Assembly (NCBI RefSeq): GCF_900172215.1
Contig: NZ_FWFP01000018.1
Location: 1 to 64,000, forward strand
DNA from: Ruegeria meonggei
GTDB lineage: Bacteria > Pseudomonadota > Alphaproteobacteria > Rhodobacterales > Rhodobacteraceae
DNA length: 64,000 nucleotides
Direction of reading: 5' to 3'
Part shown: in pieces, positions 19,127 through 51,221 of the stretch
Numbering within the stretch: position 1 is the stretch's first letter
Layout of the letters: each line of letters opens with the position of its first letter
Translations under genes and position numbers: made by a program
Notes under the pieces: generated by a model
Told to the model about the DNA's origin: nothing
The model's input: the letters and a program-made list of their open reading frames with translations, nothing else
Databases searched by the model: none

Positions 19127-19645
19127 GCATTCGACGTCCTCGTTGAACCCGGGCAGGATTTCTATCCGCCTGCCCAAAGGCAGGAAATCGACCGGATCAG
19201 CGAAGATATCTACGGGCCAGTGAACAATGGAGTCTACCGCGCCGGTTTTGCCACCTCTCAGCAAGCCTATGACGAAGCGGTCACGAAATTGTTTTCCAAG
19301 CTGGACGATCTCGACCAGCTTCTCGGCATGCAGCGCTATCTTGTCGGGGACCGGATTACCGAGGCTGATTGGCGGCTATTCACAACCCTTGTCCGCTTTG
19401 ATCCGGTTTACGTGACGCATTTCAAGACCGACCGCAAACGTATCTCGGACTATGCGAACCTGGCACCATATCTGCGCGAATTGTACCAGGTCTCAGGTGT
19501 CTCGGACACAATCGATATGGGTTCACTCCGCGCACATTATTTCCAGAGCCACAGGCATTTCAATCCTCATTGGATCGTATCTGCCGGGCCCGAGTTCGAC
19601 CTCGACCAGCCACATAGTCGCGACCTTGCGTTTCCGAAGATCTGA
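19127..19645 (+). pseudogene. Glutathionyl-hydroquinone reductase remnant (C-terminal domain)
   Basis: The plus-strand frame from about 19127 reads FDVL...[45 protein letters not shown] and VYVTHFK, the helical domain of the Xi-class GST (YqjG/PcpF type). The N-terminal thioredoxin-fold domain with its catalytic Cys-Pro motif is absent. An ATG at 19007 opens the frame, but its first 40 codons are antisense to the SDR remnant, so a 212-residue product would be chimeric and lack the active-site cysteine. The native stop (19643-19645) is retained. Confidence 0.8.
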
Positions 19646-19761
19646 AAACGTGTGCGTGATCGCGTCACGACGATCGAACGCTTAACCGGCTGAATTTCTT
19701 ACGAACTGAACCGTAACCAATTGGGGACAGCCCCCAATATCTGCTGATGGAGAAACTTTTC

Positions 19762-20178
19762 ATGCAAATCCTGTCCAAACTGGCCGTAGGTGCGATGGCA
19801 CTTTGGCTTTCCAATCAAGCCATTGCCGGCGCTCAAGATACCGCTGGTGTGCTGGAGCTGGCAAAAAACGATGGCCGCGCGACAGCGGTAGGTATCGACG
19901 GCGTGAACGAAGTTCTGCGCGGTGTTGGTGTTCGCGTAAGCACTGTTGCCGTGCCGGAAGAAGCATTGCCGTTGCTGGAGGCCTCACATTCCCGGGCGAT
20001 AGCCGAAGAAGAGGCCGAGGCGCTGATTTCGCATTTCGAATTGACCCGTGATGACCTTCTGGCCCAGATCGAGGCTGCGGGTCGGGTCCCTACCGTCGAA
20101 AATGGAGGGTTTCTGATTACCTCGGAGCCGGGTGTTGCCCCTTGGGGCGAAGAAGGGGCGATTATCGGGTTTGCTTAA
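19762..20178 (+). CDS. Small exported protein of unknown function
   Basis: A 138-residue protein with a likely signal peptide (MQILSKLAVGAMALWLSNQAIAGAQD) and a mature acidic part rich in Glu and Ala with a helical middle (EEEAEALISHFELTRDDLLAQIEAAG). No known family was recognised. ATG 19762 follows GGAGAAACTTTTC; the in-frame ATG at 19747 would place charged residues before the signal. A hairpin (ATTGGGG 19720-19726 with CCCCAAT 19732-19738) precedes it and may be an operator or attenuator. It stands alone. Confidence 0.55.
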   Translation: MQILSKLAVGAMALWLSNQAIAGAQDTAGVLELAKNDGRATAVGIDGVNEVLRGVGVRVSTVAVPEEALPLLEASHSRAIAEEEAEALISHFELTRDDLLAQIEAAGRVPTVENGGFLITSEPGVAPWGEEGAIIGFA

Positions 20179-20233
20179 GCACCGAATTGGGTAGGCAAGC
20201 TTAGGCTAGTATTAGAGGTGTTCCTTGTCGTTT

Positions 20234-20698
20234 TCACTTGCCGCGCCACAGTAACCAATACGTGACACCGAACGCCAAACCGAGCCCCGAACACCCAACG
20301 AAGTAAAGCGGTTCTAAGTCCGAAGTATCGAGTGTGATAACCTTTCTGGCAACCGCCAAAAGAGCAGTTGCAATAACCAGTTTTACATGGATGACAATTG
20401 CAGTCAGGTAGAGTGTGACGTTGGTATAGATTTCGATAGCGATCAAAACCACCAAAGCGGCCGCAAAGACGTCGAGCAGATCACTGACATCAAGAATAAG
20501 AACCGGTGGACTTACAAGCTTTATGTAGAACGAATACCCGGCATCAATGACGGCGAATCCGATCACAATGACCATGAACAAAGACATCACCCGAACCGCG
20601 TGTCGTAAAAGACGGTTGCAGTTTCTGACGATCAGGTCTTCATGATCGGGATCAAGCTCGACATGCGCTTGCCCGTTGGGTTGCATCTGTTCGACCAT
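20234..20698 (-). CDS. PsiE-like phosphate-starvation-inducible membrane protein
   Basis: A 154-residue inner-membrane protein with four hydrophobic segments after a polar N-terminal 25 residues; the pattern VSDLLDVFAAALVVLIAIEIYTN, then VKLVIATALLAVARKVI, is characteristic of the PsiE family. Its biochemical role is unknown. ATG 20698 has a strong GGGAGG ribosome site; the frame is open further upstream but enters the previous gene. It is the last gene of a minus-strand run with the outer-membrane protein and two DUF1254 proteins. Confidence 0.75.
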   Translation of the reverse strand: MVEQMQPNGQAHVELDPDHEDLIVRNCNRLLRHAVRVMSLFMVIVIGFAVIDAGYSFYIKLVSPPVLILDVSDLLDVFAAALVVLIAIEIYTNVTLYLTAIVIHVKLVIATALLAVARKVITLDTSDLEPLYFVGCSGLGLAFGVTYWLLWRGK

Positions 20699-38554: not shown

Positions 38555-38854
38555 TCAGAATCCCTGCATGAGCATATCTACGGCGACTGTGATCTGTTCA
38601 AACTCGTCTTTGAGATCACAAACTTGAGACTTGAGAATTCCAACAGGCACGGCCGCTAAAAAGTGGGTGGCCATGACGACATGTTCACCATTGATCTCGA
38701 ATACTGGGTTGAGCCGGGTCGCAGGTTTTGGAGCTTTCGTTTTCGGCAAAAGCGGCACAACAACACGCGTGTTCAAATCACTCAGAAGATCAGTTTGAAC
38801 ATCCAGAAGGAATCCATCACCAGAAGGGTTGGGAAAAACATCGTATTTTGGCAT
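38555..38854 (-). CDS. ccdB: CcdB-type toxin
   Basis: A 99-residue toxin of the CcdB family, which poisons DNA gyrase. The family start PKYDVFPNPSGDGFLLDVQTDLL, the VVPLLPKTKAP loop and PVFEINGEHVVMATHFLAAVP are clear, and it ends in the conserved hydrophobic helix ITVAVDMLMQGF. The three-residue end seen in F-plasmid CcdB (Trp-Gly-Ile) is replaced by GF. It is the second gene of the pair; its start overlaps the antitoxin stop by one base (TAATG). Confidence 0.92.
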   Translation of the reverse strand: MPKYDVFPNPSGDGFLLDVQTDLLSDLNTRVVVPLLPKTKAPKPATRLNPVFEINGEHVVMATHFLAAVPVGILKSQVCDLKDEFEQITVAVDMLMQGF

Positions 38855-39084
38855 TAGAACTGTCTGAAGCTTTCCAGTGGCAGCCCATGTCGTTCCACAT
38901 AAGAATTGGAGCTTCTCAGAGCTGCAGCATTTTCACTTTTCCATTGCTCTGCCTTTGCAGCAGCAACGGCTACACGTACCCCGTCTTCGGCCGCGCGCGA
39001 TAGGTTTACTTTCAGCTCCTTGGCTTCAGAAAGTAAGACACTGTCGAGCGACAGATTAGTTGGTTTTCGTGATTGGGCATTCAT
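38854..39084 (-). CDS. ccdA: CcdA-type antitoxin
   Basis: A 76-residue antitoxin. The N-terminal ribbon-helix-helix (RKPTNLSLDSVLLSEAKEL) binds DNA, and the C-terminal half (EQWKSENAAALRSSNSYVERHGLPL) matches the toxin-binding tail of CcdA, including the ...NGLPL-like end. It should neutralise CcdB and repress the operon. A good promoter sits directly upstream, and the pair separates nadABC from the divergent operon at 39315. Confidence 0.92.
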   Translation of the reverse strand: MNAQSRKPTNLSLDSVLLSEAKELKVNLSRAAEDGVRVAVAAAKAEQWKSENAAALRSSNSYVERHGLPLESFRQF

Positions 39085-39314: not shown

Positions 39315-39836
39315 ATGAAAAAGAAGCCTGCCACCCTGCCGCGCGGTTATCGCACCTGCACGGTATCGCTTGCCGTTGCGGATGTTCCTGCGGCTCTGAA
39401 ATTCTATGAAAACGCCTTTGACGCAAAGGTTCAGGCCTGTGACGCCGATGAGGCCCCCGGCTTTGCAGCCATCAAGATCGGCAACTCGATGCTTTTTGTG
39501 TCAACCGGATGGGGCACGCATGGTCCCATTGTTTCGGGTGCCATCACGCCAGTTAGTCAGCATATGTATGTCGAGGATATCGATGCTGTCCTGTCGACTG
39601 CATTGGAAAACGGCGCAAACCTGATTGCCGAAGCAAACGACACCTATTGGGGCGAGCGTTGTGCCACTGTTGCCGACCCGTTCGGACATATCTGGACGCT
39701 GGCAACGCGCATTGAGAACCTCAAGTCCGAAGATATCAGCGAGCGTCGCAAAGTGCTGTTTCGAACGTTTCAGGGTCAGGAGGACGAAGCCATAGCCGTG
39801 GCGGTTGAGACGACAGAGCAGACCGAGGCCGCGTGA
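39315..39836 (+). CDS. VOC family protein (PhnB/glyoxalase-like)
   Basis: A 173-residue vicinal-oxygen-chelate protein of the PhnB-like type: TCTVSLAVADVPAALKFYENAF opens the fold, HMYVEDIDAVLSTALENGA forms the second half, and WGERCATVADPFGHIWTLATR closes it. The 35 C-terminal residues are acidic and unstructured (ending TTEQTEAA). GGAG lies before the ATG. It appears to be the first gene of a seven-gene unit, with 69 bases to the next gene, and may act on the small molecule that the downstream enzymes make. Its substrate is unknown. Confidence 0.75.
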   Translation: MKKKPATLPRGYRTCTVSLAVADVPAALKFYENAFDAKVQACDADEAPGFAAIKIGNSMLFVSTGWGTHGPIVSGAITPVSQHMYVEDIDAVLSTALENGANLIAEANDTYWGERCATVADPFGHIWTLATRIENLKSEDISERRKVLFRTFQGQEDEAIAVAVETTEQTEAA

Positions 39837-39905
39837 TCCGTCAGAGGTTGAACGGCAGACGGATCGTGAGGTGCCGGAATGGGTGTGTTCATTAACAGGA
39901 AAATC

Positions 39906-40256
39906 ATGAACGACGCACCCCTTCCCACTTTCACAATCCGCCAGAACGATCTGGCTATTCTGACCGCCGAGAACCGGATCGGAGATTATCCGGTTGCGGT
40001 TCGCACCGCGCGCGAGGTGGTCAGCGGTGGCTTTGCCAACCAGTCGGCGCACCCCAACACTTGGACGGTCTACTTTTTTGTAGATGGCCAGTGGGCGCTA
40101 GTTGAATCCACGCGCGGGCTGCGGCGCGAATGGTCCAGCCTGGACCGGATTGAAAAATGGTTGCGCAGTTGCGGCTTCCGCTTCTTCTGGGTGCGTAATG
40201 ACATCGATTTTGTCGAACCGCTGACCGAAGATGCGACCGAGGAAGCGGCTCTATGA
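39906..40256 (+). CDS. Conserved-looking protein of unknown function in amide/amine operon
   Basis: A 116-residue soluble protein with no family I recognise. Aromatic-rich strands (NTWTVYFFVDGQWALVEST) and a helix (REWSSLDRIEKWLRSCGFRFFWVRNDI) suggest a small alpha/beta fold. ATG 39906 directly follows AGGAAAATC; an ATG at 39879 in frame lacks a site. Its stop overlaps the start of the next, very small gene as ATGA, so the two are translationally coupled. Confidence 0.65.
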   Translation: MNDAPLPTFTIRQNDLAILTAENRIGDYPVAVRTAREVVSGGFANQSAHPNTWTVYFFVDGQWALVESTRGLRREWSSLDRIEKWLRSCGFRFFWVRNDIDFVEPLTEDATEEAAL

Positions 40257-40390
40257 AGGTTGAATTCCTGAATAACCATGGCCTGAGGGCAGCAGGCTTG
40301 CGTGACCACACGGTTTTATGCTCCGATGAAGAACGCCGGATCAAAACGGCGGTCGCAATCGGCAACAAAATGAGAAGAAACAAAAAATGA
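40253..40390 (+). CDS. 45-residue basic small protein, ATGA-coupled on both sides
   Basis: The frame ATG 40253 to TGA 40388-40390 encodes 45 residues, beginning MKVEFLNNHGLRAAGLRD and ending in a basic cluster (KMRRNKK). The start overlaps the stop of the previous gene (ATGA) with GAGGAAG seven bases upstream, and its own stop overlaps the start of the nitrilase-like gene, again as ATGA. That it fills the gap exactly between two coupled genes is the main evidence that it is real. It has one Cys and no signal or membrane helix. It could be a carrier or precursor peptide, an accessory subunit or merely a coupling leader; nothing shows which. Confidence 0.6.
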   Translation: MKVEFLNNHGLRAAGLRDHTVLCSDEERRIKTAVAIGNKMRRNKK

Positions 40391-41355
40391 CCCCTTTTGC
40401 GATAACCGGAATCCAGATGCATGTGGGCGCGATGCACTCGAACGTCGATGCGATGCTGCATCGCATCGACGTGATGATGGCACGGTTCCCCTGGACCCAA
40501 ATGGCTTTGTTCAGTGAGCTGGCACCTTATGGTCCACTTGATCGGTTTGCCCAGCCGTTTCCCAATGATGATCTGTCACGCTTTCAGGATGCGGCACGGC
40601 GCTACGGAATTTGGCTGATCCCCGGCTCGATGTTCGAAAAGCGCGAGGACGGGCGCGTTTTCAACACCTCAGTAGTGATCAACCCGGATGGTGAAATCGT
40701 CTCGAAATATTCTAAGATGTTTCCGTTCAAACCCTATGAGCAGAACATCGCCTCGGGCACCGAGTTCTGCATCTTTGACGTGCCGGATGTAGGCCGGTTT
40801 GGTCTGTCGATCTGCTATGACATCTGGTTCCCCGAAACTACCCGCCACTTGACCTCGCAAGGGGTCGAGGTTCTGCTGCACCCTGTTCTGACTGGCACGA
40901 CCGACCGAGAGGCCGAATTGTCGATTGCCAAGGCAACTGCCGCGCAGTTCCAGTGTTACGTGTTCGACGTGAACGGGCTGGCTGCGGGTGGCGTGGGTCG
41001 CTCGCTGGTGGTTGATCCGTCAGCCACCGTTCTGCACCAATCCGCAGGGCAGGAGGATATTTTCCCGATTGAGATCGATCTGGATCAGGTTCGCCGCCAG
41101 CGCGAGGTTGGATTGAAAGGTCTGGGGCAGGTGCTCAAAAGCTTCCGAGATCGAGAGGCTGATTTCCCCGTATATGACCGTAACAGCGGGGCGGATGCTT
41201 ATCTGCACACCCTCGGCCCGCTGCGCATACCGCAAAAGGGCGACGCGGCAGGTGTCGCCGCGACCGACCCCAGAACAGCACTGGGATACAGCGAAGACGC
41301 CGCGAAAAAGCCCGATAATCTGTATCTCTACGAGGGGCGCTCAGGCACAGACTGA
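40387..41355 (+). CDS. Carbon-nitrogen hydrolase (nitrilase superfamily)
   Basis: A 322-residue enzyme of the nitrilase/amidase fold. The catalytic triad is visible: Glu44 (FSELAPYGP), Lys110 (KYSKMFPF) and Cys143 (SICYDIWFPE). Such enzymes cut C-N bonds of amides, N-carbamoyl compounds or nitriles through a Cys acyl-enzyme, or transfer the acyl group. The protein is longer than N-carbamoylputrescine amidase (about 290), with an extra C-terminal segment of 50 residues rich in Asp and Ala. It is coupled to the preceding small gene and followed after 42 bases by a PLP decarboxylase, so a role with an amino-acid-derived amine is plausible. Confidence 0.85.
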   Translation: MTPFAITGIQMHVGAMHSNVDAMLHRIDVMMARFPWTQMALFSELAPYGPLDRFAQPFPNDDLSRFQDAARRYGIWLIPGSMFEKREDGRVFNTSVVINPDGEIVSKYSKMFPFKPYEQNIASGTEFCIFDVPDVGRFGLSICYDIWFPETTRHLTSQGVEVLLHPVLTGTTDREAELSIAKATAAQFQCYVFDVNGLAAGGVGRSLVVDPSATVLHQSAGQEDIFPIEIDLDQVRRQREVGLKGLGQVLKSFRDREADFPVYDRNSGADAYLHTLGPLRIPQKGDAAGVAATDPRTALGYSEDAAKKPDNLYLYEGRSGTD

Positions 41356-41397
41356 TATCGGGCAGCTTTTCGGTATCAGCAGAAAGGACAGGATTTC

Positions 41398-44130
41398 ATG
41401 CACGGCATTTCCGATAGCGAAAAGCTCCCAACAATTTCAGACTACTACAGCGCCTCACAATTGAGGGCGGATAGGTGGAGCGCGCTACGGGAAACCGCTG
41501 AATCTCTGGACCGCGACGGTGACGAAAAACATCGTGTACGCGCCCTGCAACTGATGCAGGCGCTGGCGCCGATCGAGATGTATTTCGCCTTTCCCGGTGG
41601 ATCCGCCTTTGATTACCTGCGCCGGTTGCTTGAGCATGGCAATTTCACCGATTTCTCAACCGCAGTGCGCCGGGTGGCGCGCGCGTTGACCTCCGGAGCC
41701 TATCGCCGTCGTTCGATTCCACTGATCGCGGATGAGACTGAAGGCGACGAATTCGAAGACGAGTCGACCCAAACCCACGAAGCCCGCGCATTGGGGCGGC
41801 CGTATTTCGAGGTGATGATCGTCGACAATGTCAACGAGCAGCAGGAAAAATTCTTACAAACCAGCCTGCAACGCATGCGCCGCAGCGAAGACCCGTTCAT
41901 CTATGAGACTGTCGTTGTGCCCAGTGTCGAAGATGCGTTGATCGGGGTTCTGTTCAATCAGAATGTGCAGGCTGTCATCGTCCGCCCGGGTTTGGGGCTG
42001 AAGTCCAAGAACGAAACCAATGTTCTTGGCCGCTACATGAGCCTCTATGGCGAAGGGGCCGACCTCGAGGAGTTGACACCATCGGAATACGGGCCCGAAA
42101 CCTGCCGCCGTATCGGGATGTTACGCCCGGAACTGGATGCCTATCTGATCACCGACCGGTCTGCCGAAGACATCGCCGTGCTTGACCTGGGCCTGTGCCG
42201 GCGCGTGTTCTACAATCAGGAAGATTTTCTGGAGCTGCATCTCAACATCCTGCGGGGTGTGCAGCGTCGCTATAAAACACCGTTCTTCACCGCACTAAAG
42301 GAATACTCCAAGCAGCCGACGGGCGTGTTTCATGCAATGCCGATCAGCCGTGGTAAATCGATCAGCCGCAGTCATTGGATTCAGGATATGGGGGCGTTTT
42401 ACGGCTCGAACATCTTCATGGCCGAAACCTCCGCCACGTCCGGTGGTCTGGATTCACTGCTGGAGCCACGTGGTCCGATCAAAGAGGCGCAGGAAGCCGC
42501 CGCCCGCGCTTTCGGTTCCAAACAGACGTTCTTTGCCACTAACGGCACCTCAACCTGCAACAAGATTGTTGTGCAGGCATTGGTGAAGCCCGGAGACATC
42601 GTGCTGGTCGACCGCGATTGCCATAAATCGCATCATTACGGCATGGTTCTGGCTGGTGCGAGCGTGGTCTATATGGACAGCTATCCGCTGCACGAATACT
42701 CGATGTACGGCGCGGTTCCGATCCGCGAAATCAAGCATAAGCTTTTGGCCCTGAGGGCTGAGGGTAAGCTGGACCGAGTTCGGATGGTGCTGCTGACTAA
42801 CTGCACCTTTGACGGCATTGTCTATAACGTCCAGCGGGTGATGCAGGAATGTTTGGCGATCAAGAAAGACCTCGTGTTCCTGTGGGACGAAGCATGGTTT
42901 GCCTATGCAAGGTTCGCCCCCAATTCGCGGGTGCGTACTGCGATGCGGTCGGCCAATATCCTGCGTGAAGAGTTCCGGACACCGGAACATGCCGAGGCCT
43001 ATAACGCCCAACAGGCAATACTGGAAGGCGCCGATGACGATGTTTGGCTTAACACTCGTCTTATCGCGCCGCCCAATGCACGGGTACGGGTTTACGCCAC
43101 GCAATCCACCCATAAGACGCTGACGTCTCTGCGTCAGGGATCAATGATTCACGTCAACGATCAGCGCTTTAAGGGAGCGGTCGAAGAGGCGTTCCACGAA
43201 GCTTACATGACACATACGTCCACTTCGCCGAACTATCAGATCATCGCCTCTCTCGATGTCGGGCGCAGACAGGTTGAGCTTGAGGGCTTTGAATTTGTCC
43301 AGCGGCAGGTGGAAAGCGCCATGGCAATCCGAAGGGCGGTGTCGACACATCCGCTGCTGAAGAAATATTTCAAACTGGTAACTGCAGGCGACATGATTCC
43401 CGAGGAATATCGTGAAAGTGGGATGAAGAGCTATTTCGACCCCGATCAGGGCTGGGCAGATGTCTGGGATTCCTGGTCACGTGACGAGTTCGTGTTGGAT
43501 GCCACCCGTATCACGCTGCATGTGGGTGCCACCGGATGGGACGGCGACACGTTCAAGACAAAGATACTGATGGACAAGTACGGCATCCAAATCAACAAGA
43601 CCTCGCGCAACACTGTGCTGTTCATGACCAATATCGGCACAACGCGCAGTTCCGTTGCGTATTTGATTGAGGTTCTGGTTGAGATCGCCAAAGAGCTGGA
43701 CGATCTTATGGATGATGCATCCAGGATGGAAAAACTGGCCTTTGACAAGCGTGTCAAAAATCTGGTTGAAAATGTTCCGCCGCTGCCCGATTTCAGCAGG
43801 TTCCACGATGCGTTCCGCTGTGAAAAAGGCACCGAAGCGGGCAACATTCGCAGGGCCTTCTTCCTGTCGTATGACGAGGATAACTGTGACTATGTCGAGC
43901 CGGACAAGGGCATGTTGGACAGATTGGAAGCGGGCGAAGAACTTGTCTCTGCCACCTTCGTCATCCCCTATCCGCCCGGCTTTCCCATATTGGTGCCGGG
44001 GCAGGTCATAAGCCCAGAGATTCTAAGATTCATGCAAGCGCTGGACGTCTCGGAAATCCACGGATTCCGCGCTGATCTTGGCCTGCGCATTTTTACCGAA
44101 GACGCTTTGAAATCAGTCAAGAACCCCTAA
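41398..44130 (+). CDS. Orn/Lys/Arg decarboxylase family protein (PLP fold type I)
   Basis: A 910-residue enzyme. An N-terminal extension and wing domain (to about residue 300) carries the receiver-like segment DALIGVLFNQNVQAVIVRPGLG; the PLP domain follows with TSATSGGLDSLLEPRGPIKEAQEAAARAFG, the WDEAWFA segment (cofactor Asp) and the Schiff-base Lys573 in STHKTLTSLRQGS; the C-terminal domain ends with VSATFVIPYPPGFPILVPG. It is longer than E. coli inducible decarboxylases (about 715-755). The family removes the alpha-carboxyl of basic amino acids to give polyamine-type amines; the exact amino acid is not decided by the motifs. AGAAAGGA precedes the ATG. Confidence 0.88.
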   Translation: MHGISDSEKLPTISDYYSASQLRADRWSALRETAESLDRDGDEKHRVRALQLMQALAPIEMYFAFPGGSAFDYLRRLLEHGNFTDFSTAVRRVARALTSGAYRRRSIPLIADETEGDEFEDESTQTHEARALGRPYFEVMIVDNVNEQQEKFLQTSLQRMRRSEDPFIYETVVVPSVEDALIGVLFNQNVQAVIVRPGLGLKSKNETNVLGRYMSLYGEGADLEELTPSEYGPETCRRIGMLRPELDAYLITDRSAEDIAVLDLGLCRRVFYNQEDFLELHLNILRGVQRRYKTPFFTALKEYSKQPTGVFHAMPISRGKSISRSHWIQDMGAFYGSNIFMAETSATSGGLDSLLEPRGPIKEAQEAAARAFGSKQTFFATNGTSTCNKIVVQALVKPGDIVLVDRDCHKSHHYGMVLAGASVVYMDSYPLHEYSMYGAVPIREIKHKLLALRAEGKLDRVRMVLLTNCTFDGIVYNVQRVMQECLAIKKDLVFLWDEAWFAYARFAPNSRVRTAMRSANILREEFRTPEHAEAYNAQQAILEGADDDVWLNTRLIAPPNARVRVYATQSTHKTLTSLRQGSMIHVNDQRFKGAVEEAFHEAYMTHTSTSPNYQIIASLDVGRRQVELEGFEFVQRQVESAMAIRRAVSTHPLLKKYFKLVTAGDMIPEEYRESGMKSYFDPDQGWADVWDSWSRDEFVLDATRITLHVGATGWDGDTFKTKILMDKYGIQINKTSRNTVLFMTNIGTTRSSVAYLIEVLVEIAKELDDLMDDASRMEKLAFDKRVKNLVENVPPLPDFSRFHDAFRCEKGTEAGNIRRAFFLSYDEDNCDYVEPDKGMLDRLEAGEELVSATFVIPYPPGFPILVPGQVISPEILRFMQALDVSEIHGFRADLGLRIFTEDALKSVKNP

Positions 44131-44152
44131 GGGGCCAGGGAGGACAACAAAC

Positions 44153-45601
44153 ATGCCAAAGAAGGTGCTCAAGAACATCTCGGAAATCCGCCGGTACTTC
44201 CACACCAACAAGGATCCGGTCTATTTCGTGTCGGCGACCAATTTCAACCTGTTGGGGTTGGACGAATGGGTGATGAATTTCACCTATATCTGCTACATGG
44301 ATTGCTTTGATGGTCGACATCCGAACGTGTTCGTGCCTTCAGAAATGCCGCATGACGAGTTCCAGTCGATCGAAGACATTAACAACTATCTGTTGCAGCA
44401 CAAAGAAGTCATCGACCTGATCAAACGGCGCGGCGGGAAACCGAAGTTTGTCTTCCTGATGTTCGATGAGACCACCGAGAAACTGGTCAAAGATCTGGGT
44501 GGTCAGCTCTGGTTTCCCAAAGCCAAGCTGCGCACCAAATGCGACAACAAGATCGAGACCGTGCGCATCGGCAACAAGGCGGGCGTACCGTCCGTGCCAA
44601 ATACTCTGAGCGTCGTCAAAAGCTATGATCATCTGCAAAAGATCTGCGACAAGGCCGGGCTGGGCCATGATCTGGTGCTGCAATCCGCCTTCGGCGACAG
44701 TGGCCACACAACGTTTTTCATCAAGTCAGAGGGTGATTTCAACAAACACAAAGATGAGATCATTGGCGAAGGCGAAATCAAGATCATGAAACGGATCGAT
44801 TGTCGCGGCGCGGCGATCGAAGCCTGTGCCACATCTGAAGGCACCATCGTTGGTCCGCTGATGACCGAACTTGTGGGCTTTAATGAACTGACCCCCTATC
44901 GCGGTGGTTGGTGTGGCAATGAAATCTTCTCAACTGCGTTCCCACCCAAAGCCCGCGAACAGGCGCGGCAACTGACATTCCAATTCGGGGAAGAGCTACG
45001 CAAGTCCGGCTATCGCGGTTACTTCGAACTCGATTTCCTGATCGACAAAAAAACTGACGAGCTATGGCTGGGCGAGCTGAACCCGCGCATCACCGGGGCC
45101 AGTTCGATGACCAACCATGCGGCCTTTGCTCATGCGGATGCGCCACTGTTTTTGTTTCACTTGCTGGAGTTCAGCAAGAAACCCTTCAAGCTGGATGTTG
45201 AGGAACTCAATGCCCGTTGGGCTGACCCGGACATGATCGACAGTTGGTCGCAGATGGTGATCAAGCACACCGATGATAGCGTGGATCGCATCACCCAGGC
45301 CCCGCAATCGGGCATCTACAAGATGCTGGAAGATGGCCGCGTAGTGTTTGACCGGTTCGATTATCACCGCCGCGCGGTGGGTGAGAATGAGGCGTTTTTC
45401 CTGCGTATCTCGAATGTCGGCGATTATCGCTATGAGGGCGCCGATCTGGGCATTCTGGTGACGCGCGGTCGATCGATGACTAAAGGCTTCAAACTGACCG
45501 ACAAATCGAAAAAGTGGATTCACGGCATCAAGTCGGCTTACGCGGCGGAACCGCTGCCTGCGGCGCAGCCGATGGAAGACCCTGCGTTCAAAATTATGTA
45601 G
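44153..45601 (+). CDS. ATP-grasp superfamily ligase (biotin carboxylase-like)
   Basis: A 482-residue protein with an ATP-grasp core at about residues 120-330: KLRTKCDNKIETVRIGNKAGVP, VLQSAFGDSGHTTFFI (phosphate loop), IKIMKRIDCRGAAIEA and FELDFLIDKKTDELWLGELNPRITGA (Mg-binding Glu/Asn-Pro-Arg). Databases often call such proteins biotin carboxylase, but no biotin carrier or transferase gene is nearby, so a carboxylate-amine ligase joining an acid to an amine through an acyl phosphate is more likely (inference). AGGGAGGA lies before the ATG. It lies 22 bases after the decarboxylase and eight bases before the C45 hydrolase. Confidence 0.8.
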   Translation: MPKKVLKNISEIRRYFHTNKDPVYFVSATNFNLLGLDEWVMNFTYICYMDCFDGRHPNVFVPSEMPHDEFQSIEDINNYLLQHKEVIDLIKRRGGKPKFVFLMFDETTEKLVKDLGGQLWFPKAKLRTKCDNKIETVRIGNKAGVPSVPNTLSVVKSYDHLQKICDKAGLGHDLVLQSAFGDSGHTTFFIKSEGDFNKHKDEIIGEGEIKIMKRIDCRGAAIEACATSEGTIVGPLMTELVGFNELTPYRGGWCGNEIFSTAFPPKAREQARQLTFQFGEELRKSGYRGYFELDFLIDKKTDELWLGELNPRITGASSMTNHAAFAHADAPLFLFHLLEFSKKPFKLDVEELNARWADPDMIDSWSQMVIKHTDDSVDRITQAPQSGIYKMLEDGRVVFDRFDYHRRAVGENEAFFLRISNVGDYRYEGADLGILVTRGRSMTKGFKLTDKSKKWIHGIKSAYAAEPLPAAQPMEDPAFKIM

Positions 45602-45609
45602 AAAGCCCC

Positions 45610-46593
45610 ATGGCGCTTGTTTTTCGCTCAATTGACGAGGAACAGCCCGGTCCAAAGCTGGCCGAGCTGTTTGCCGAATACTGGCCCGCCTACCGCAAAT
45701 GGTGGGCGCAAGAGGGGTATTCGGCCCGCCCGACCTATCGCGAGTGTCTGCGCGCGTTGGAACGTCATATGCCTGAGATTCTACCTCTGTATGAGCAGGT
45801 GGTTGAACTTGTGGGTGGCAGCGACAGCCAGGCACGGTTCCTCAGCTTTTACTGCCCACCCAAATACCTGTCTGGTTGCAGTCAAGCGATCTGGCGCGGC
45901 AAGACACCAATATTAGTACGCAACTATGACTATCACCCAAGAACATTTGACGCCGCCTTGTTGAAAACCCGATGGGACAGGCGCGGTGTGATCGGGATGA
46001 GCGACGGAGTTCTGGGCCTGCTTGATGGGATCAACGATGCTGGTCTGACCGTCTCGCTGACCTTCGGCGGACGCCCCGAGGTGGGCGACGGGTTCGGCGT
46101 GCCGCTGATCCTGCGCTATGTGCTGCAGACCTGCCAAACCACGGTAGAGGCGGTGGACTGCCTGTGCCGTATCCCCTGCCACATGAGCTATAACGTCACC
46201 GTTCTGGATGCGAAATACAATCACAGCACGGTCTACGTTGCGCCCGACCGGCACCCGCAGATCTCGGACCTGCCCGTGGCCACGAACCATCAGGGCCATG
46301 TTGAATGGTCACAGCACGCCCGGTTTACCGCGACTGTTGAGCGAGAGAGGTTTCTTTTAAACCGCCTCAATCATCACCCGGAGAGCGAACAGCGCTTCAT
46401 TGATGCTTTTCTGCGTCCTCCGCTTTATTCAACTGCATTTAAGTCGGGGTTCGGTACACTCTACACTGCCGCCTACCGACCAGCCAAAAGACAACTTGAG
46501 CTATTGTGGCCAGGTGCAAGTTGGAATTTCTCGTTCGATAGTTTCAGTGAAAGTGAACGCAGTATTTGGCTACCTGAACAGGAACTACTGTAA
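45610..46593 (+). CDS. C45 family Ntn-hydrolase (acyl-CoA:6-aminopenicillanate acyltransferase-like)
   Basis: A 327-residue protein of the AAT/C45 family. The likely nucleophile is Cys90 in SGCSQAIW, preceded by Gly89 where autoprocessing would expose it as an N-terminal Cys; RNYDYHP supplies the conserved Asn-x-Asp, and GRPEVGDGFGVPLILRYVLQT is typical. Members transfer or hydrolyse acyl groups on amines. Start ATG 45610 follows the ATP-grasp stop by eight bases; a longer frame reaches back into that gene. It is the last gene of the operon. An unusually long 89-residue propeptide region precedes the Cys. The substrate is unknown. Confidence 0.82.
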   Translation: MALVFRSIDEEQPGPKLAELFAEYWPAYRKWWAQEGYSARPTYRECLRALERHMPEILPLYEQVVELVGGSDSQARFLSFYCPPKYLSGCSQAIWRGKTPILVRNYDYHPRTFDAALLKTRWDRRGVIGMSDGVLGLLDGINDAGLTVSLTFGGRPEVGDGFGVPLILRYVLQTCQTTVEAVDCLCRIPCHMSYNVTVLDAKYNHSTVYVAPDRHPQISDLPVATNHQGHVEWSQHARFTATVERERFLLNRLNHHPESEQRFIDAFLRPPLYSTAFKSGFGTLYTAAYRPAKRQLELLWPGASWNFSFDSFSESERSIWLPEQELL

Positions 46594-47248: not shown

Positions 47249-48109
47249 TTAGTGCATGATGGGCCTGGTTTCCATTGGGACGATGGTTTTCGGGGCCGGT
47301 GGGCGGTAGCCCAGAGCACTGTGAGGGCGTTTGGTGTTGTAGTGTTTCCTCCATTGTTCGATCAGGATTTGTGCCTCCCGCAAGCTGTAGAATACCTCGC
47401 CATTCAGCAGTTCATCTCTGAACCGGGCGTTGAAGCTCTCGCAGTATCCGTTCTCCCAAGGTGATCCCGGCTCAATGTAGGCAGTCCTGGCACCGGCCGC
47501 TGCAATCCAATCTTGGACGGCCTGAGAATGAACTCAGGGCCATTGTCTGATCGGATGTAGGCAGGCACGCCTCGCAGGGTAAACAGGTCCGTTAGTGCGT
47601 CTATAACCTCGGTCGAGTTCAGCTTCCGCTTCACCCGGATCGCCAGGCATTCCCGGCTGTATTCATCCAGGACATTCAGAGTCCGGAACGCATTCCCGTC
47701 ATCCGTCCGGTGGTGCACGAAGTCGTAGGACCAGACGTGGTCACGATACTCCGGCCGCAGCCGAACACACGAGCCGTCGTTCAGCCAGAGCCGCCCTTTC
47801 TTCGGCTGTTTCATTGGCACTTTAAGCCCTTCACGTCGCCATAGACGTTCGACACGCTTGTCGTTCACCAACCAGCCCGCATCCCGCAGCATTGCGGCAA
47901 TCCGGCGATACCCGTATCGACCATATTGGCGCGTCAGCTCGATCATGTCAGACACCAGGCGGTCTTCGTCAGCACGTCCAACTGGCAACCGCCTCTGCGT
48001 GGAACGGTGCTGACCCAGAACACGGCAGACCCGCCGTTCAGACACCCGCATCTCGTTGCGAATGTGATCAATGCAAGCCCGGCGACGTGACGGGCTCAGT
48101 AGTTTCCCC
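47249..48109 (-). pseudogene. IS3 transposase OrfB, frameshifted
   Basis: The DDE integrase part of the IS3 element. Recognisable segments are RRACIDHIRNEMRVSERRVC, YGYRRIAAMLRDAGW, VWSYDFVHHRTDDGNAFRTL (first Asp) and [11 protein letters not shown] (second Asp). One base is missing near 47531, after which the right frame reads [16 protein letters not shown] (catalytic Glu), [18 protein letters not shown] and ends at TAA 47251-47249. OrfB is normally made by -1 slippage from orfA; the slippery G-GGA-AAC lies at 48109-48103. The deletion should inactivate this copy. Confidence 0.8.
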
Positions 48110-48374
48110 GTGCAGCCTCAGACAGGATCAGCTTGTCCAAAGTCAGATCCGATACCGCCCGGCGCAATCGGTCATTCTCCTTTTGAAGGCGCTTTAGTTC
48201 TTTCAGTTGGTCGGTTCCCATGCCGCCATATTGCTTGCGCCAGCGGTAAAACGTCTGCTCGGTTATCTGCACCTGGCGGATAGCATCAACACGTGGCATC
48301 CCTTGGCCGCACAGCACCTCAACCTGCCGTAACTTCGTGACAATCTCTTCCGGCTTGTGTCGCTTGTTTCCCAT
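48096..48374 (-). CDS. IS3 transposase OrfA
   Basis: A 92-residue helix-turn-helix protein, beginning MGNKRHKPEEIVTKLRQVEVL, with the HTH TEQTFYRWRKQYGGM and a leucine-zipper-like coiled coil LKELKRLQKENDRLRRAVSDL. It binds the element ends and is fused to OrfB by -1 frameshifting at a slippery G-GGA-AAC just before its stop. This frame is intact. Confidence 0.88.
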   Translation of the reverse strand: MGNKRHKPEEIVTKLRQVEVLCGQGMPRVDAIRQVQITEQTFYRWRKQYGGMGTDQLKELKRLQKENDRLRRAVSDLTLDKLILSEAARGNY

Positions 48375-48430
48375 CTTTGATTCTCCGCATCCTAACTATA
48401 GGGGCGGACCAATTCTGTGGGGGAGGATCA

Positions 48431-49153
48431 ATTCCACCTGCGACAACCGGCGTGGGTTCCGTGGCGATCCGTCTGCTCCGCGTGAAAAGCGTTGACCTGG
48501 GCGCTTTCAGCTTTGCTAGCAAAGAGGGCGCACTAGCTGAAAGCAACGATCACAGCGCGCTTGAAAATGCTCGGGCTGCTCTAGCAGCGGGCACAATGAG
48601 CTTTGACGAGCTGGCCGACCTTTCGATGCAGAGCAAATGGAACGTGATTATTGCGGGCGGTACATCGTCGGGCAAAACCACTGTTTTGAATGCAATGTTG
48701 AAGCGCGTCGATCCAGGCGAACGGATCGTGACGATTGAGGAAGTGGCAGAGCTGGACATCGAGCAACCAAACTCGGTTGACTTGCTTGCTGATCGTTCCG
48801 AAGAAAATGGGCCTCGATCCCCGACGAAACTGCTTGAATCTGCGCTTCGCCTCCGGCCTGATCGGCTGGTTTGCGGGGAAATCCGGGGCGACGACGCGAA
48901 TATGTTCTTGGAGCTGGTGAACACCGGCCACGATGGATCTGTCTGCACCATGCACGCAAACTCGCCCGTTGATGCCATTGGGCGCATGAGCAAAATGGTG
49001 CGGCGCGGATCTCCGACTGTCCAAAAGTCAGAGGTGGTTGATGACATCAGAGCCACCATTCACATGATCGTTCACATGAAGAAAATCGGAGACGAGCGGA
49101 AGGTCAACGGCGTGATTTTCCGGCCCCTGATGACCGCTGACCAACTTATCTGA
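48431..49153 (+). pseudogene. virB11: VirB11-type secretion ATPase, 5'-truncated by IS3
   Basis: The frame contains the C-terminal ATPase half of VirB11/TrbB: SVAIRL, the Walker A GGTSSGKTT, IVTIEEVAELDI, RLRPDRLVCGEIRGDDA (Walker B region) and GHDGSVCTMHANSP. The N-terminal domain is lost; real homology begins at about PPATTGVGSVAIR, directly at the IS3 end (48431), and the open frame's first codons from 48377 lie inside the IS. It would have powered a type IV secretion or conjugation channel. The virD4-like gene follows, so this was part of a transfer locus. The remainder lacks the N-domain needed for hexamer assembly. Confidence 0.85.
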
Positions 49154-49165
49154 AGGAGTCAAAAG

Positions 49166-49324
49166 ATGAAGAAATTTGAGTATCGAGACGTGCCCTTTTC
49201 GGAGCATGACGACGCGAAAGTAAAGTTCGCAAAGCTGGGGAATGAAGGTTGGGGAATGGTCGGTGTCGCCCGCGCTGAATTTGGCCTTGTGTGCTTTTTC
49301 AAGCGTGAGCTGACGGATGGCTGA
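49166..49324 (+). CDS. Small DUF4177-like protein in transfer locus
   Basis: A 52-residue protein (MKKFEYRDVPFSEHDD... ending CFFKRELTDG). The pattern, in which an opening YEY-like strand is followed by LGNEGWGMVGVA and a closing FFKREL, matches small DUF4177-type proteins. AAGGAGT stands eight bases before the ATG. It overlaps the start of virD4 by eight bases, so both are probably translated together. The function is unknown. Confidence 0.65.
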   Translation: MKKFEYRDVPFSEHDDAKVKFAKLGNEGWGMVGVARAEFGLVCFFKRELTDG

Positions 49325-51221
49325 GTTTCAGGATCTCCCAAAAGGCAAGAAGGTAGCGATAGCCGGCACAATGGGCTTTATCGCTACTTCAGCCTGTGCG
49401 GTGTTGGTGGTCGGCCTGGACATCGAATACCTCAACACGAAAGGATTCCGGGGGCTGCACATCTGGGCAATCCCGGAAAAGCTCATGGCACGGCCTGCAG
49501 AAGAACAACAGGTCATCGGGCTTGTGGCTGTTGTGGCCGTCTGCGTTCTGACCTTTGCGTTTGTGGCCGCTGCTTTGCGCGGCCCCTCGACCAAATACGG
49601 GGATGCGGTTTTTGCGAAAGCGCCTCAGCTCGTCACAGAAGGATACGCGGCACCTCTGAAGCTGAAATCAAAACTGGACAGTGAAATCGTCTTTGCCAAA
49701 TTCGGGCCACCAAAAGAGAAAAACGCGATTTTCTATAAGCCCGGTCCAAGCGTACAGAAACCACATGCGATGTTCATTGCTCCGTCTGGCTCGGGTAAAA
49801 CAAGCGGCTTTGTGATCCCCGACATTCTGCGTTTCAACGGCTCCTGCGTTGTTCTGGACATCAAAGGCGAGATATTCCAAGCGACCGGCGCACGGCGGGC
49901 AACAATGGGGGATGAGGTCTTTGTTTTCGACCCTGAGAACCCAGAAAAAAGCCACAGCTATAACCCGCTGAGGCGCGCAGCTCGCGCAGACAATCTGGAT
50001 CGGCGTTGGGAAGAAGTAATTCAGGTCGCAACGCAGATGTTCGACACGCCCAGCTCGTCCGCTCAGGGTTTTTTGGGCGGCGTCGAAGGCATGTTCTGCG
50101 CAATGGCAATGTTGGCAATCAAGCGGAACCGTCCGTACATTTCCGAGATCCTGCGCCTGGTCAAAACGACCAAGCAAAAGGATTATGAAAAGATGGCCGA
50201 AGAAGTAGGCTATGCCCGGGCAGCAGATGAGTTCCTGAATCTCGCAGCCGAAGAATCCAAAATCCTCCGGTCAACGATTTCGGTTATGAACAACTCCGGC
50301 CTTCAGCTCTGGCGCAACCCGTCTGTGGCAAGGGCGACGCAGGGCAATGACATCAACTTTGAAGATCTGCGTCGGCGCCCCACCTCGATCTACTTTTCTG
50401 TGCCGGGGAAAAAGGTCAAAGAATTCCGGACACTCATTCGCCTGTTCTTCCTCGATCTGGTGAACACAATCGAAACCCACGAACCGGGCCCAGATGAGCC
50501 GTTCAAGGTTTTGATGCTGCTCGATGAGTTTCAGCGTCTCGGCCACCTTGAGCGCGTCGTTGAAGCATATGACACCATGCGATCGTTCGGCGGTCGGATC
50601 ATCGTGATTTCGCAAACGCTGTCGCGCCTGCAGGACATTTATGGGCACGAGGGCGTCCGGGCGATGCTGGCAAACGCCGGAACGCAGATGTTTGCGGCCT
50701 CCGAAGACTCTGAGGTGCGTGAACATGTGTCCAGGTCCATCGGTGACAAAACCGTCATGAGCAAATCAAAGTCACGGGCGCTGGGTAAAATGGAAATGGG
50801 CAGCATATCAGAGCGTGAAGAAGGCATTCGTCTGCTCAGGCCGGAACACGTTGGCCGACTGCCTGAAAGTGAGGTTGTGCTGATCCGCGAGGGTAAGATG
50901 CCGGTGATTGCAAACAAGATCAGGTACTTTGAAGATCCCTATTTCATGCAGTTCTTGGGTGGCGAAAGTCCGAAGATCAAAGGCACACACCTCGATCTGG
51001 CTGTAGAGCAAGCCAGGGACACGGCAAAGGTGCTGGCTGATGCGAAACCGGCCCCTGCCCCGGTGAAAGAGGTTTCGGAAAAAGATCAGGAACTTCAGGC
51101 GGCGTTTGATGCGCAGCGCACAGTAGCCAAAAGAAAAAGCCGGTCCGCAAAAGACATGGCGGTGGAGAAGTTGGCGACACAACCGTCGAGCCCAGTCGGA
51201 AACGCGCAGCACTCCAGTTGA
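49317..51221 (+). CDS. virD4: VirD4/TraG-type conjugative coupling protein
   Basis: A 634-residue coupling ATPase. Two N-terminal membrane helices (about 16-36 and 63-83) anchor it, Walker A PSGSGKTS is at residues 156-163, Walker B-type VLMLLDEFQRLG follows at about 398-410, and the conserved NPLRRAA, FSVPGKKVKEFRTLIR and AANAGTQMF-like segments are present. It brings the relaxase-DNA complex or effector proteins to a type IV channel. The gene is intact, but no relaxase or other VirB genes occur in the window apart from the cut virB11, so it may be an orphan. Its last 60 residues are basic and disordered. Confidence 0.92.
   Translation: MAEFQDLPKGKKVAIAGTMGFIATSACAVLVVGLDIEYLNTKGFRGLHIWAIPEKLMARPAEEQQVIGLVAVVAVCVLTFAFVAAALRGPSTKYGDAVFAKAPQLVTEGYAAPLKLKSKLDSEIVFAKFGPPKEKNAIFYKPGPSVQKPHAMFIAPSGSGKTSGFVIPDILRFNGSCVVLDIKGEIFQATGARRATMGDEVFVFDPENPEKSHSYNPLRRAARADNLDRRWEEVIQVATQMFDTPSSSAQGFLGGVEGMFCAMAMLAIKRNRPYISEILRLVKTTKQKDYEKMAEEVGYARAADEFLNLAAEESKILRSTISVMNNSGLQLWRNPSVARATQGNDINFEDLRRRPTSIYFSVPGKKVKEFRTLIRLFFLDLVNTIETHEPGPDEPFKVLMLLDEFQRLGHLERVVEAYDTMRSFGGRIIVISQTLSRLQDIYGHEGVRAMLANAGTQMFAASEDSEVREHVSRSIGDKTVMSKSKSRALGKMEMGSISEREEGIRLLRPEHVGRLPESEVVLIREGKMPVIANKIRYFEDPYFMQFLGGESPKIKGTHLDLAVEQARDTAKVLADAKPAPAPVKEVSEKDQELQAAFDAQRTVAKRKSRSAKDMAVEKLATQPSSPVGNAQHSS

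Follow-up and report, generated by a model that had tools for sequence, protein, structure and literature searches.

Among described systems, the closest to the locus treated here is the Puu pathway of Escherichia coli, encoded by puuPADRCBE, in which PuuA, PuuB, PuuC and PuuD act in turn, followed by PuuE and succinate-semialdehyde dehydrogenase (SSADH), under the control of PuuR, as outlined in a passage of PMC9397018. Here we analyze a block of genes between positions 39,315 and 46,593 of a 64,000-nucleotide stretch of the Ruegeria meonggei genome (contig NZ_FWFP01000018.1, positions 1 to 64,000; hereafter, the window). The core of this block is made up of four genes, encoding a carbon-nitrogen hydrolase (CNH), a long pyridoxal-phosphate decarboxylase (DC), an ATP-grasp ligase (GRASP) and an Ntn-type acyltransferase/hydrolase of the C45 family (C45). 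With a probability of roughly 0.45, we propose that they form a patchy, often plasmid-borne catabolic cassette in which an amine derived from a basic amino acid is tagged through an amide, oxidized and untagged, ending in gamma-aminobutyrate (GABA). The proposed route would share with the Puu pathway its ATP-dependent amide tagging, oxidation, hydrolysis to GABA and final conversion by GabT and SSADH, and a PuuR-like regulator is found near many copies of the cassette. It differs in that the cassette ligase is an ATP-grasp enzyme, whereas the Puu ligase is of the glutamine-synthetase type; in that the Ntn-type amide hydrolase is C45 and not, like PuuD, C26; and in that the set includes its own decarboxylase and CN-hydrolase. 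No PuuA-type ligase belongs to the cluster, a glutamine-synthetase-like gene lying near only one (L085) of 108 loci. Because ligase and hydrolase come from other families, we regard the cassette as working like the Puu pathway without being a member of it.

Individual components and settings of the cassette recall other systems. Homology between DC and Rv2531c of Mycobacterium tuberculosis extends along almost the entire DC protein, and the best fold match of C45 is the isopenicillin N acyltransferase of Penicillium (C45/AAT), which also carries its Cys nucleophile inside the chain; the two differ in that they share only about 16% identity, the window C45 is bacterial and no beta-lactam genes are seen in the window operon. 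Isopenicillin N acyltransferase cleaves an amide to take off an L-alpha-aminoadipyl group, a reaction that, by analogy, resembles removal of a gamma-glutamyl group. Genes for arginine degradation via 2-ketoarginine and 4-guanidinobutyrate surround GRASP and C45 in one locus (L012) and, by homology, in another (L018), and in two more (L104, L105) the cassette sits inside the genes for ectoine degradation (Doe/Eut). The arginine route is not known to need a ligase, C45 or CNH, nor is the Doe set known to include the four core genes. The first-pass annotation, made from the sequence alone, had recognized no standard polyamine, beta-lactam or siderophore set with this content, and in agreement with it a full-text search of the open PMC literature for the gene set, its parts and Puu genes in Roseobacter returned no named pathway for the set and no title describing the cassette; an ATP-grasp passage in PMC8407117 concerns the circularly permuted ATP-grasp COG2308 and does not mention the cassette.

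The four core genes occur together far more often than chance would allow. A 9-row GRASP alignment was used to scan for relatives, and the best 80 of 479 were kept as loci; these, eight plasmid loci and the window itself compose a set of 89 loci that was searched with the window proteins using tblastn. GRASP was detected in 89 loci, C45 in 88, DC in 86 and CNH in 81, against 10 each for the two upstream genes of the block, VOC and U125, and 8 for a 45-residue open reading frame (ORF). Within the best 80, DC is present in 79 (none near L037), C45 in 79 (none in L097) and CNH in 75, the losses of CNH in the five remaining loci (L031, L052, L065, L086, L089) being due to contigs that end inside DC. 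Since the 80 loci come mostly from related Rhodobacterales, they do not represent 80 independent events, and 20 further loci were sampled from a class sample, a phylum sample and relatives, most but not all of them distant. C45 was found in 18 of these, DC in 17 and CNH in 16; two loci (L110, L117) are truncated where their contigs stop, and one (L116) duplicates L055. At least four gene orders occur among them, including CNH-DC-GRASP-C45, CNH-GRASP-C45-DC (L103, L104, L105), DC-GRASP-C45 with CNH absent from the locus (L101, L102) and CNH-GRASP-C45 with DC absent (L113); C45 and CNH are separated from GRASP in L112, the arrangement is divergent in L100 and GRASP stands alone in L099.

The same picture emerges from whole genomes. 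In a panel of 61 genomes (the source genome, of 4.54 Mb, and 60 relatives, 37 of the panel belonging to the window's genus), GRASP was found at 47% identity or more in 14 genomes, all of that genus; five matches near E 1e-3, at 23% identity, were left out of this count. C45 (E 1e-20) was found in the same 14 genomes and DC (E 1e-100) in 12 of them, the exceptions being G010 and G028, with none of the three detected in the other 47. The independent occurrence of these genes elsewhere, envisaged in the first-pass annotation as the outcome that would speak against a common function, is thus the opposite of what was found. At E 1e-60, the class sample (385 genomes) and the phylum sample (398 genomes) each gave 11 genomes with a GRASP match, the source genome being included in both counts, and for this reason the cassette is called patchy. 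GRASP also matches 32 plasmid records, in 24 of which the match spans the greater part of the protein, with plasmid-borne copies hosted by Roseobacter, Pseudorhodobacter, Cupriavidus, Roseateles, Shinella, Rhizobium and Sinorhizobium. Two copy-number observations stand beside these counts: one genome of the window's genus (G017) carries two different GRASP-C45 copies (C12:312648-314084 and C17:117301-118749), with GRASP 60% and 87% identical to that of the window, and a Rhizobium plasmid (NZ_CP071402, 7147-11688; L013) carries a decayed-looking copy, with DC in two annotated pieces, C45 shortened and transposases adjoining, as well as a second DC.

The active-site residues proposed in the first-pass annotation proved correct. 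Lys573 of DC is invariant in 13 of 13 aligned diverse relatives, Cys90 of C45 in 20 of 20 aligned relatives, and the Glu44-Lys110-Cys143 triad of CNH, together with Glu118, in 13 of 13 aligned diverse relatives. The structural model of GRASP, built from a 28-row alignment (mean predicted local distance difference test, pLDDT, 86.7; predicted template modeling score, pTM, 0.87), is nearest to biotin carboxylases and PurK (Foldseek E 1e-18 to 1e-16, Z 21.5-23.1); its matches also include the amide ligase PylC (324 residues, Z 21.8, root-mean-square deviation, rmsd, 4.3). In a profile alignment to pyruvate carboxylase, the GRASP segment E-L-N-P-R-I-T-G-A stands opposite E-V-N-P-R-I-Q-V-E. The Gln and Glu that follow the E-x-N-x-R motif in E. 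coli biotin carboxylase serve in bicarbonate binding and catalysis; in all 28 GRASP rows the Gln column holds Thr or Ser and the catalytic Glu column Ala, Ile or Cys, while Lys133, Glu308, Asn310 and Arg312 are unchanged in 28 of 28. The residues of the ATP/metal site therefore look kept and those of the carboxylase do not, and a biotin carboxylase function was rejected on account of the replaced Gln and Glu. GRASP belongs by score to NF005096/PRK06524, named 'biotin carboxylase', but lacks the residues that the family name implies.

As a sequence search of solved structures with C45 returned nothing at E up to 1, a model was folded from 24 rows (pLDDT 91.5). Its best match, 2x1c, is the precursor form of isopenicillin N acyltransferase (303 residues, Z 30.5, rmsd 3.1), well ahead of the next family, NAAA (Z 24.1). 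By family score, internal Cys nucleophile and AAT fold, C45 belongs to the autoproteolytic acyltransferase/hydrolase family, with autoproteolysis and acyl transfer as predicted activities. DC is homologous, over query residues 19-906, to the solved chains 9n0n/9n0o ('probable amino acid decarboxylase', E ~1e-244), and a standard lysine, arginine or ornithine decarboxylase identity was rejected, its best NCBIfam score being 208.3 against a cut-off of 968. A passage of a 2026 review assigns 9N0O to M. tuberculosis Rv2531c and describes the activity of this protein as not clarified (PMC12910592); according to a heading in PMC4569260, growth on arginine does not crucially depend on adi (Rv2531c). 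Among NCBIfam models, CNH scores best against deaminated glutathione amidase and N-carbamoylputrescine amidase but stays well below the cut-off of each; assignment to the latter (TIGR03381) was discarded, with 68.1 bits against an equivalog cut-off of 410.25.

The gene set, its linkage, the conserved active-site residues, the predicted folds and the neighbors support the cassette directly, and from them we infer a route whose substrates, tag and step order, like the role of CNH, are predicted. DC would decarboxylate a basic amino acid, most likely arginine or ornithine and possibly 2,4-diaminobutyrate or lysine, to a di- or guanidino-amine, and an agmatinase-type enzyme, where present, would convert agmatine to putrescine. 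With ATP, GRASP would then couple a carboxylic acid, such as glutamate or a similar compound, to one of the amino groups, so that the aldehyde formed later could not cyclize. The free end would be oxidized by a transaminase or an oxidase dependent on flavin adenine dinucleotide (FAD), together with an aldehyde dehydrogenase, from genes close to the cassette or at a distance; C45 would cleave the amide to release a GABA-type omega-amino acid, and GabT and SSADH would convert the latter to succinate. CNH may open a second amide, for instance that of a deaminated or mis-transaminated conjugate, which is the weakest part of this reading. A decarboxylase, an ATP-grasp ligase and an amidase of the isopenicillin N acyltransferase type, located near genes for GABA, arginine or ectoine breakdown and for uptake, fit such a tag-oxidize-untag route. 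A bolder form of the proposal holds that the Rv2531c-type decarboxylase, GRASP, the isopenicillin N acyltransferase-like C45 and the nitrilase-type amidase make up a complete decarboxylate-tag-oxidize-untag module, an undescribed pathway with a tag acid other than glutamate; this we put forward as tentative, conceivable rather than probable. In this form the proposal would give the PRK06524 family a function and the Rv2531c branch of decarboxylases a metabolic context.

Neighboring genes were identified by clustering the called ORFs over the 89 loci, a procedure that left many rarer clusters unassigned. The clusters named comprise a class III transaminase (42 of 89 loci), an XRE-cupin regulator (33), a TAXI-TRAP binding protein and a fused permease (27 each, with parts matching PF16868 and PF06808), a universal stress protein (24), ABC ATPases (14) and an aldehyde dehydrogenase (9), and Pot- and Dpp-like transporters are also among the recurrent neighbors identified. 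The transaminases of the 108 non-window loci fall into a GabT group (38 loci, L076 being excluded at 34%), a PRK07483 group (10) and the pair found in L104 and L105. The single GabT representative scored, from L037, reaches 770 over an equivalog cut-off of 724, and the aldehyde dehydrogenase of L019 is of the SSADH type (722 over 646). PuuR-like relatives were detected by tblastn in 37 of the 108 loci; the one representative scored, also from L037, has PuuR as its sole family match, with 134 bits, under the cut-off of 211. The permease of L064 is PotB-like, again under cut-off. In three Ruegeria loci (L019-L021) gabT and the SSADH-type gene lie upstream of the cassette in divergent orientation; the upstream side of the window differs, with no credible trace of regulator, gabT or gabD in its 64 kb by tblastn, and a GabT homologue of 81% identity is encoded elsewhere in the same genome.

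Agmatinase-type ureohydrolases were found by tblastn in six of the 108 loci (L012, L018, L108, L109, L112 and, partially, L107), and the three that were scored all exceed the agmatinase TIGR01230 cut-off of 174.3 (L012 216, L109 193.7, L112 219.5). In L012, GRASP-C45 is flanked by genes for 5-guanidino-2-oxopentanoate decarboxylase (733 over 500), D-amino acid dehydrogenase (472 over 383) and an aldehyde dehydrogenase, with an ornithine-racemase-like protein (397, under a cut-off of 480) and with CNH and an Lrp regulator in divergent orientation; ORF clustering and homology indicate a similar arrangement in L018. The neighbors of L112 include genes for an FAD oxidoreductase that resembles amino-acid oxidases but scores below the cut-offs, an agmatinase-type gene and an aldehyde dehydrogenase. 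Relatives of DoeA or DoeB occur within the fetched flanks of three of the 108 loci: in L104 and L105 the cassette lies between doeA-doeB-Lrp and a group formed by an aldehyde dehydrogenase, a transaminase and eutB (L105 scores: DoeA 670 over 613, DoeB 492 over 403, EutB 466 over 413), and in L095 DoeB is encoded directly upstream (514 over 403). With their genes for GABA, arginine and ectoine catabolism and for uptake, these neighborhoods favor degradation over the building of a product. The initial suggestion that the locus builds, tailors or degrades an amide-linked molecule can be narrowed accordingly: the gene set is naturally read as making and breaking amides on the decarboxylation product of a basic amino acid, and building is not the favored direction. 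Some less frequent neighbors were also seen. In L085, a gene at positions 19281-20645, about 8 kb downstream of the cassette, looks like a glutamine synthetase and might be of the PuuA type; tblastn at E 1e-20 detected no relative of it in the remaining 107 loci. Upstream of the cassette, three Defluviimonas loci (L059, L060, L081) carry genes that look, by their sequence, like those of Rieske oxygenases and reductases, and a distant relative of the Rieske-like gene lies near the lone GRASP of L099.

Several results weigh against the catabolic proposal. The conserved core contains no oxidase or aldehyde dehydrogenase, and a GabT gene adjoins the cassette in roughly one locus in three, the window not among them. 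Peptidase_C26, the PuuD family, has matches at E 5e-54 or lower in each of the 37 genomes of the genus, with and without the cassette alike (those listed for the source genome lie on contigs C20, C17 and C21, the window being part of C33). The idea that the cassette replaces PuuD is accordingly unsupported, in what is a weak test, given that 14 of 14 control genomes also match. The glutamine-synthetase-like gene of L085 places a possible Puu-type ligase close to one copy. In L104 and L105 the surroundings are those of ectoine degradation, in which putrescine is not an intermediate and which fits diaminobutyrate better than arginine, and in L012 and L018 GRASP-C45 adjoins an arginine route that is not known to require a tag. 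Core members missing from a locus may be encoded at a distance: the plasmid carrying L012 has a DC at another site (59%), as does the L037 genome (74%), and the L099 genome holds a CNH elsewhere (57%) and a merely partial DC match (32%). In other cases no counterpart was detected, with no DC at E 1e-20 on the L018 plasmid or in the L112 genome, and no CNH at E 1e-30 in the L101 and L102 genomes or on three rhizobial plasmids. Because the L101 and L102 genomes lack CNH and the L112 genome lacks DC, neither gene is indispensable. It is these points, on C26, core oxidases, ectoine, L012/L018 and dispensability, together with the biosynthetic alternative considered below, that hold our estimate for the catabolic proposal at its stated value.

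The enzyme types encoded by the core genes also build amides in natural products, and the four genes might also be read in the direction of synthesis, with DC providing an amine, GRASP coupling it to an acid, C45 swapping or trimming the acyl group and CNH trimming a terminal amide, to yield a secreted signal, an osmolyte or an antimetabolite. A patchy distribution, here 14 of 61 genomes, and a location on plasmids are often seen with product clusters. The recurrent neighbors that could be identified are nonetheless genes of uptake and degradation (GabT, SSADH, TRAP, Pot-/Dpp-like, Doe, agmatinase), with many rarer clusters unassigned, and we regard biosynthesis as unlikely. The ectoine setting of L104 and L105, and the DoeB gene directly upstream of the cassette in L095, raise the question of whether the cassette serves the 2,4-diaminobutyrate derived from ectoine, which DC would convert to 1,3-diaminopropane and the remaining enzymes to beta-alanine. 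With DoeA or DoeB at merely 3 of 108 non-window loci, and with agmatinase-type and arginine genes at other loci that do not fit this substrate, such a dedicated role appears distinctly improbable.

Also improbable is a role for GRASP as a bicarbonate-using N-carboxylase, similar to PurK or biotin carboxylase, which would generate a carbamate or a carboxylated guanidine for degradation by CNH and C45. The top structural matches of GRASP point in that direction, as do the weak similarity of CNH to N-carbamoylputrescine amidase (68 bits) and the arginine and agmatinase-type genes near some copies, but the replacement of both carboxylase residues in 28 of 28 rows, given the roles described above, and the absence of a biotin carrier among the six window genes argue against it. 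That the four genes share no pathway and merely hitch-hike together on plasmids and islands would agree with their patchy, plasmid-borne distribution; it is already contradicted by the linkage counts, and the set is largely kept, in shuffled order, across Alphaproteobacteria, Cupriavidus and other classes of the phylum, with a Roseateles sp. XES5 plasmid (NZ_CP084753) retaining DC elsewhere on the same replicon. We consider this explanation hardly credible.

Should the catabolic proposal hold, the cassette would constitute a second route for the breakdown of polyamine-type nitrogen, built from unrelated enzymes and used by marine and soil bacteria. It would correct the misleading database name of PRK06524, 'biotin carboxylase'; it would point to a likely substrate class for a bacterial C45 subfamily; and it would offer a harmless bacterial system in which the substrate of the Rv2531c type of decarboxylase can be probed. 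Irrespective of its chemistry, a conserved four-gene set poses a well-defined and testable problem.

In the window, the first-pass annotation had described seven same-strand genes, with gaps of at most 69 bases and two ATGA overlaps, as a single set that might act on a peptide carrier. Six plus-strand genes are supported (Table 1), four of which form the conserved unit. The seventh, a 45-residue ORF, was not taken as a gene because its start or frame is missing in three of nine Ruegeria loci compared (the window, L019-L025 and L118), the frame lacking an ATG start in two of them (L023, L024) and being disrupted in L019. Both overlaps depend on this ORF and fall with it, and a peptide carrier was rejected, the frame not being conserved and no gene for it remaining. 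A block of DNA preceding the CNH start (window positions 40295-40376) is largely invariant in the nine loci, whether the small frame is open or not; the 45-residue ORF is thus probably a leader or intergenic block conserved at the DNA level, and the invariant block may be a candidate regulatory leader. Once the ORF is discounted, the gap between U125 and CNH is 130 bases, and those between the core genes are 42 (CNH-DC), 22 (DC-GRASP) and 8 bases (GRASP-C45).

Table 1. Features of the gene block in the window, with family scores in bits
Feature	Coordinates	Strand	Support and remarks
VOC (glyoxalase-like), 173 aa, accessory	39315..39836	+	PF00903 42.8, cut-off 20.6
U125, accessory partner of VOC	39906..40256 (ORF open from 39879)	+	Likely start ATG 39906
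45-residue ORF, unsupported as a gene	40253..40390	+	Frame or start lost in 3/9 Ruegeria loci
CNH, carbon-nitrogen hydrolase, 322 aa	40387..41355	+	PF00795 101.3, cut-off 23.2; Glu44/Lys110/Glu118/Cys143
DC, long Orn/Lys/Arg-type PLP (pyridoxal-phosphate) decarboxylase, 910 aa	41398..44130	+	PF01276 253.3, cut-off 27; Lys573
GRASP, ATP-grasp ligase, 482 aa	44153..45601	+	NF005096/PRK06524 750.4, cut-off 684
C45, predicted autoproteolytic Ntn acyltransferase/hydrolase, 327 aa	45610..46593 (ATG 45610)	+	NF040521 176.9, cut-off 85 (scored with the ORF starting at 45514); nucleophile Cys90

VOC and U125 are a real but lineage-limited pair, judged accessory because they are present in just 10 of the 89 loci. 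Besides the window, they accompany the cassette in eight other Ruegeria loci (L019-L025, L118), the nearest named relatives of the window (GRASP identity 96-98% in L019-L025), and in L112, where VOC (51%) and U125 (70-75%) are arranged differently; L074 and L080 contain weak VOC matches (29-31%) with U125 in reverse orientation. U125 has no Pfam or NCBIfam match, shares 85-93% identity with its counterparts in the other Ruegeria loci and 40% with that of L074, and sits beside a VOC-like gene wherever detected, in three arrangements, among loci that were all fetched through GRASP. A conserved stretch of U125 reads W-x-V ... V-D-G ... R-E-W-S-S-L-D-R.

Just upstream of the block, at 38555-39084 on the minus strand, two small overlapping ORFs resemble a CcdA/CcdB toxin-antitoxin pair, in the place where Ruegeria L019-L021 carry gabD-gabT. 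Downstream, the segments 47249-48374 and 48377-51221 contain IS3-type transposase-like pieces, a VirB11-like ORF and a VirD4-like gene, as judged from their sequences, so that the cassette seems to adjoin conjugation genes.

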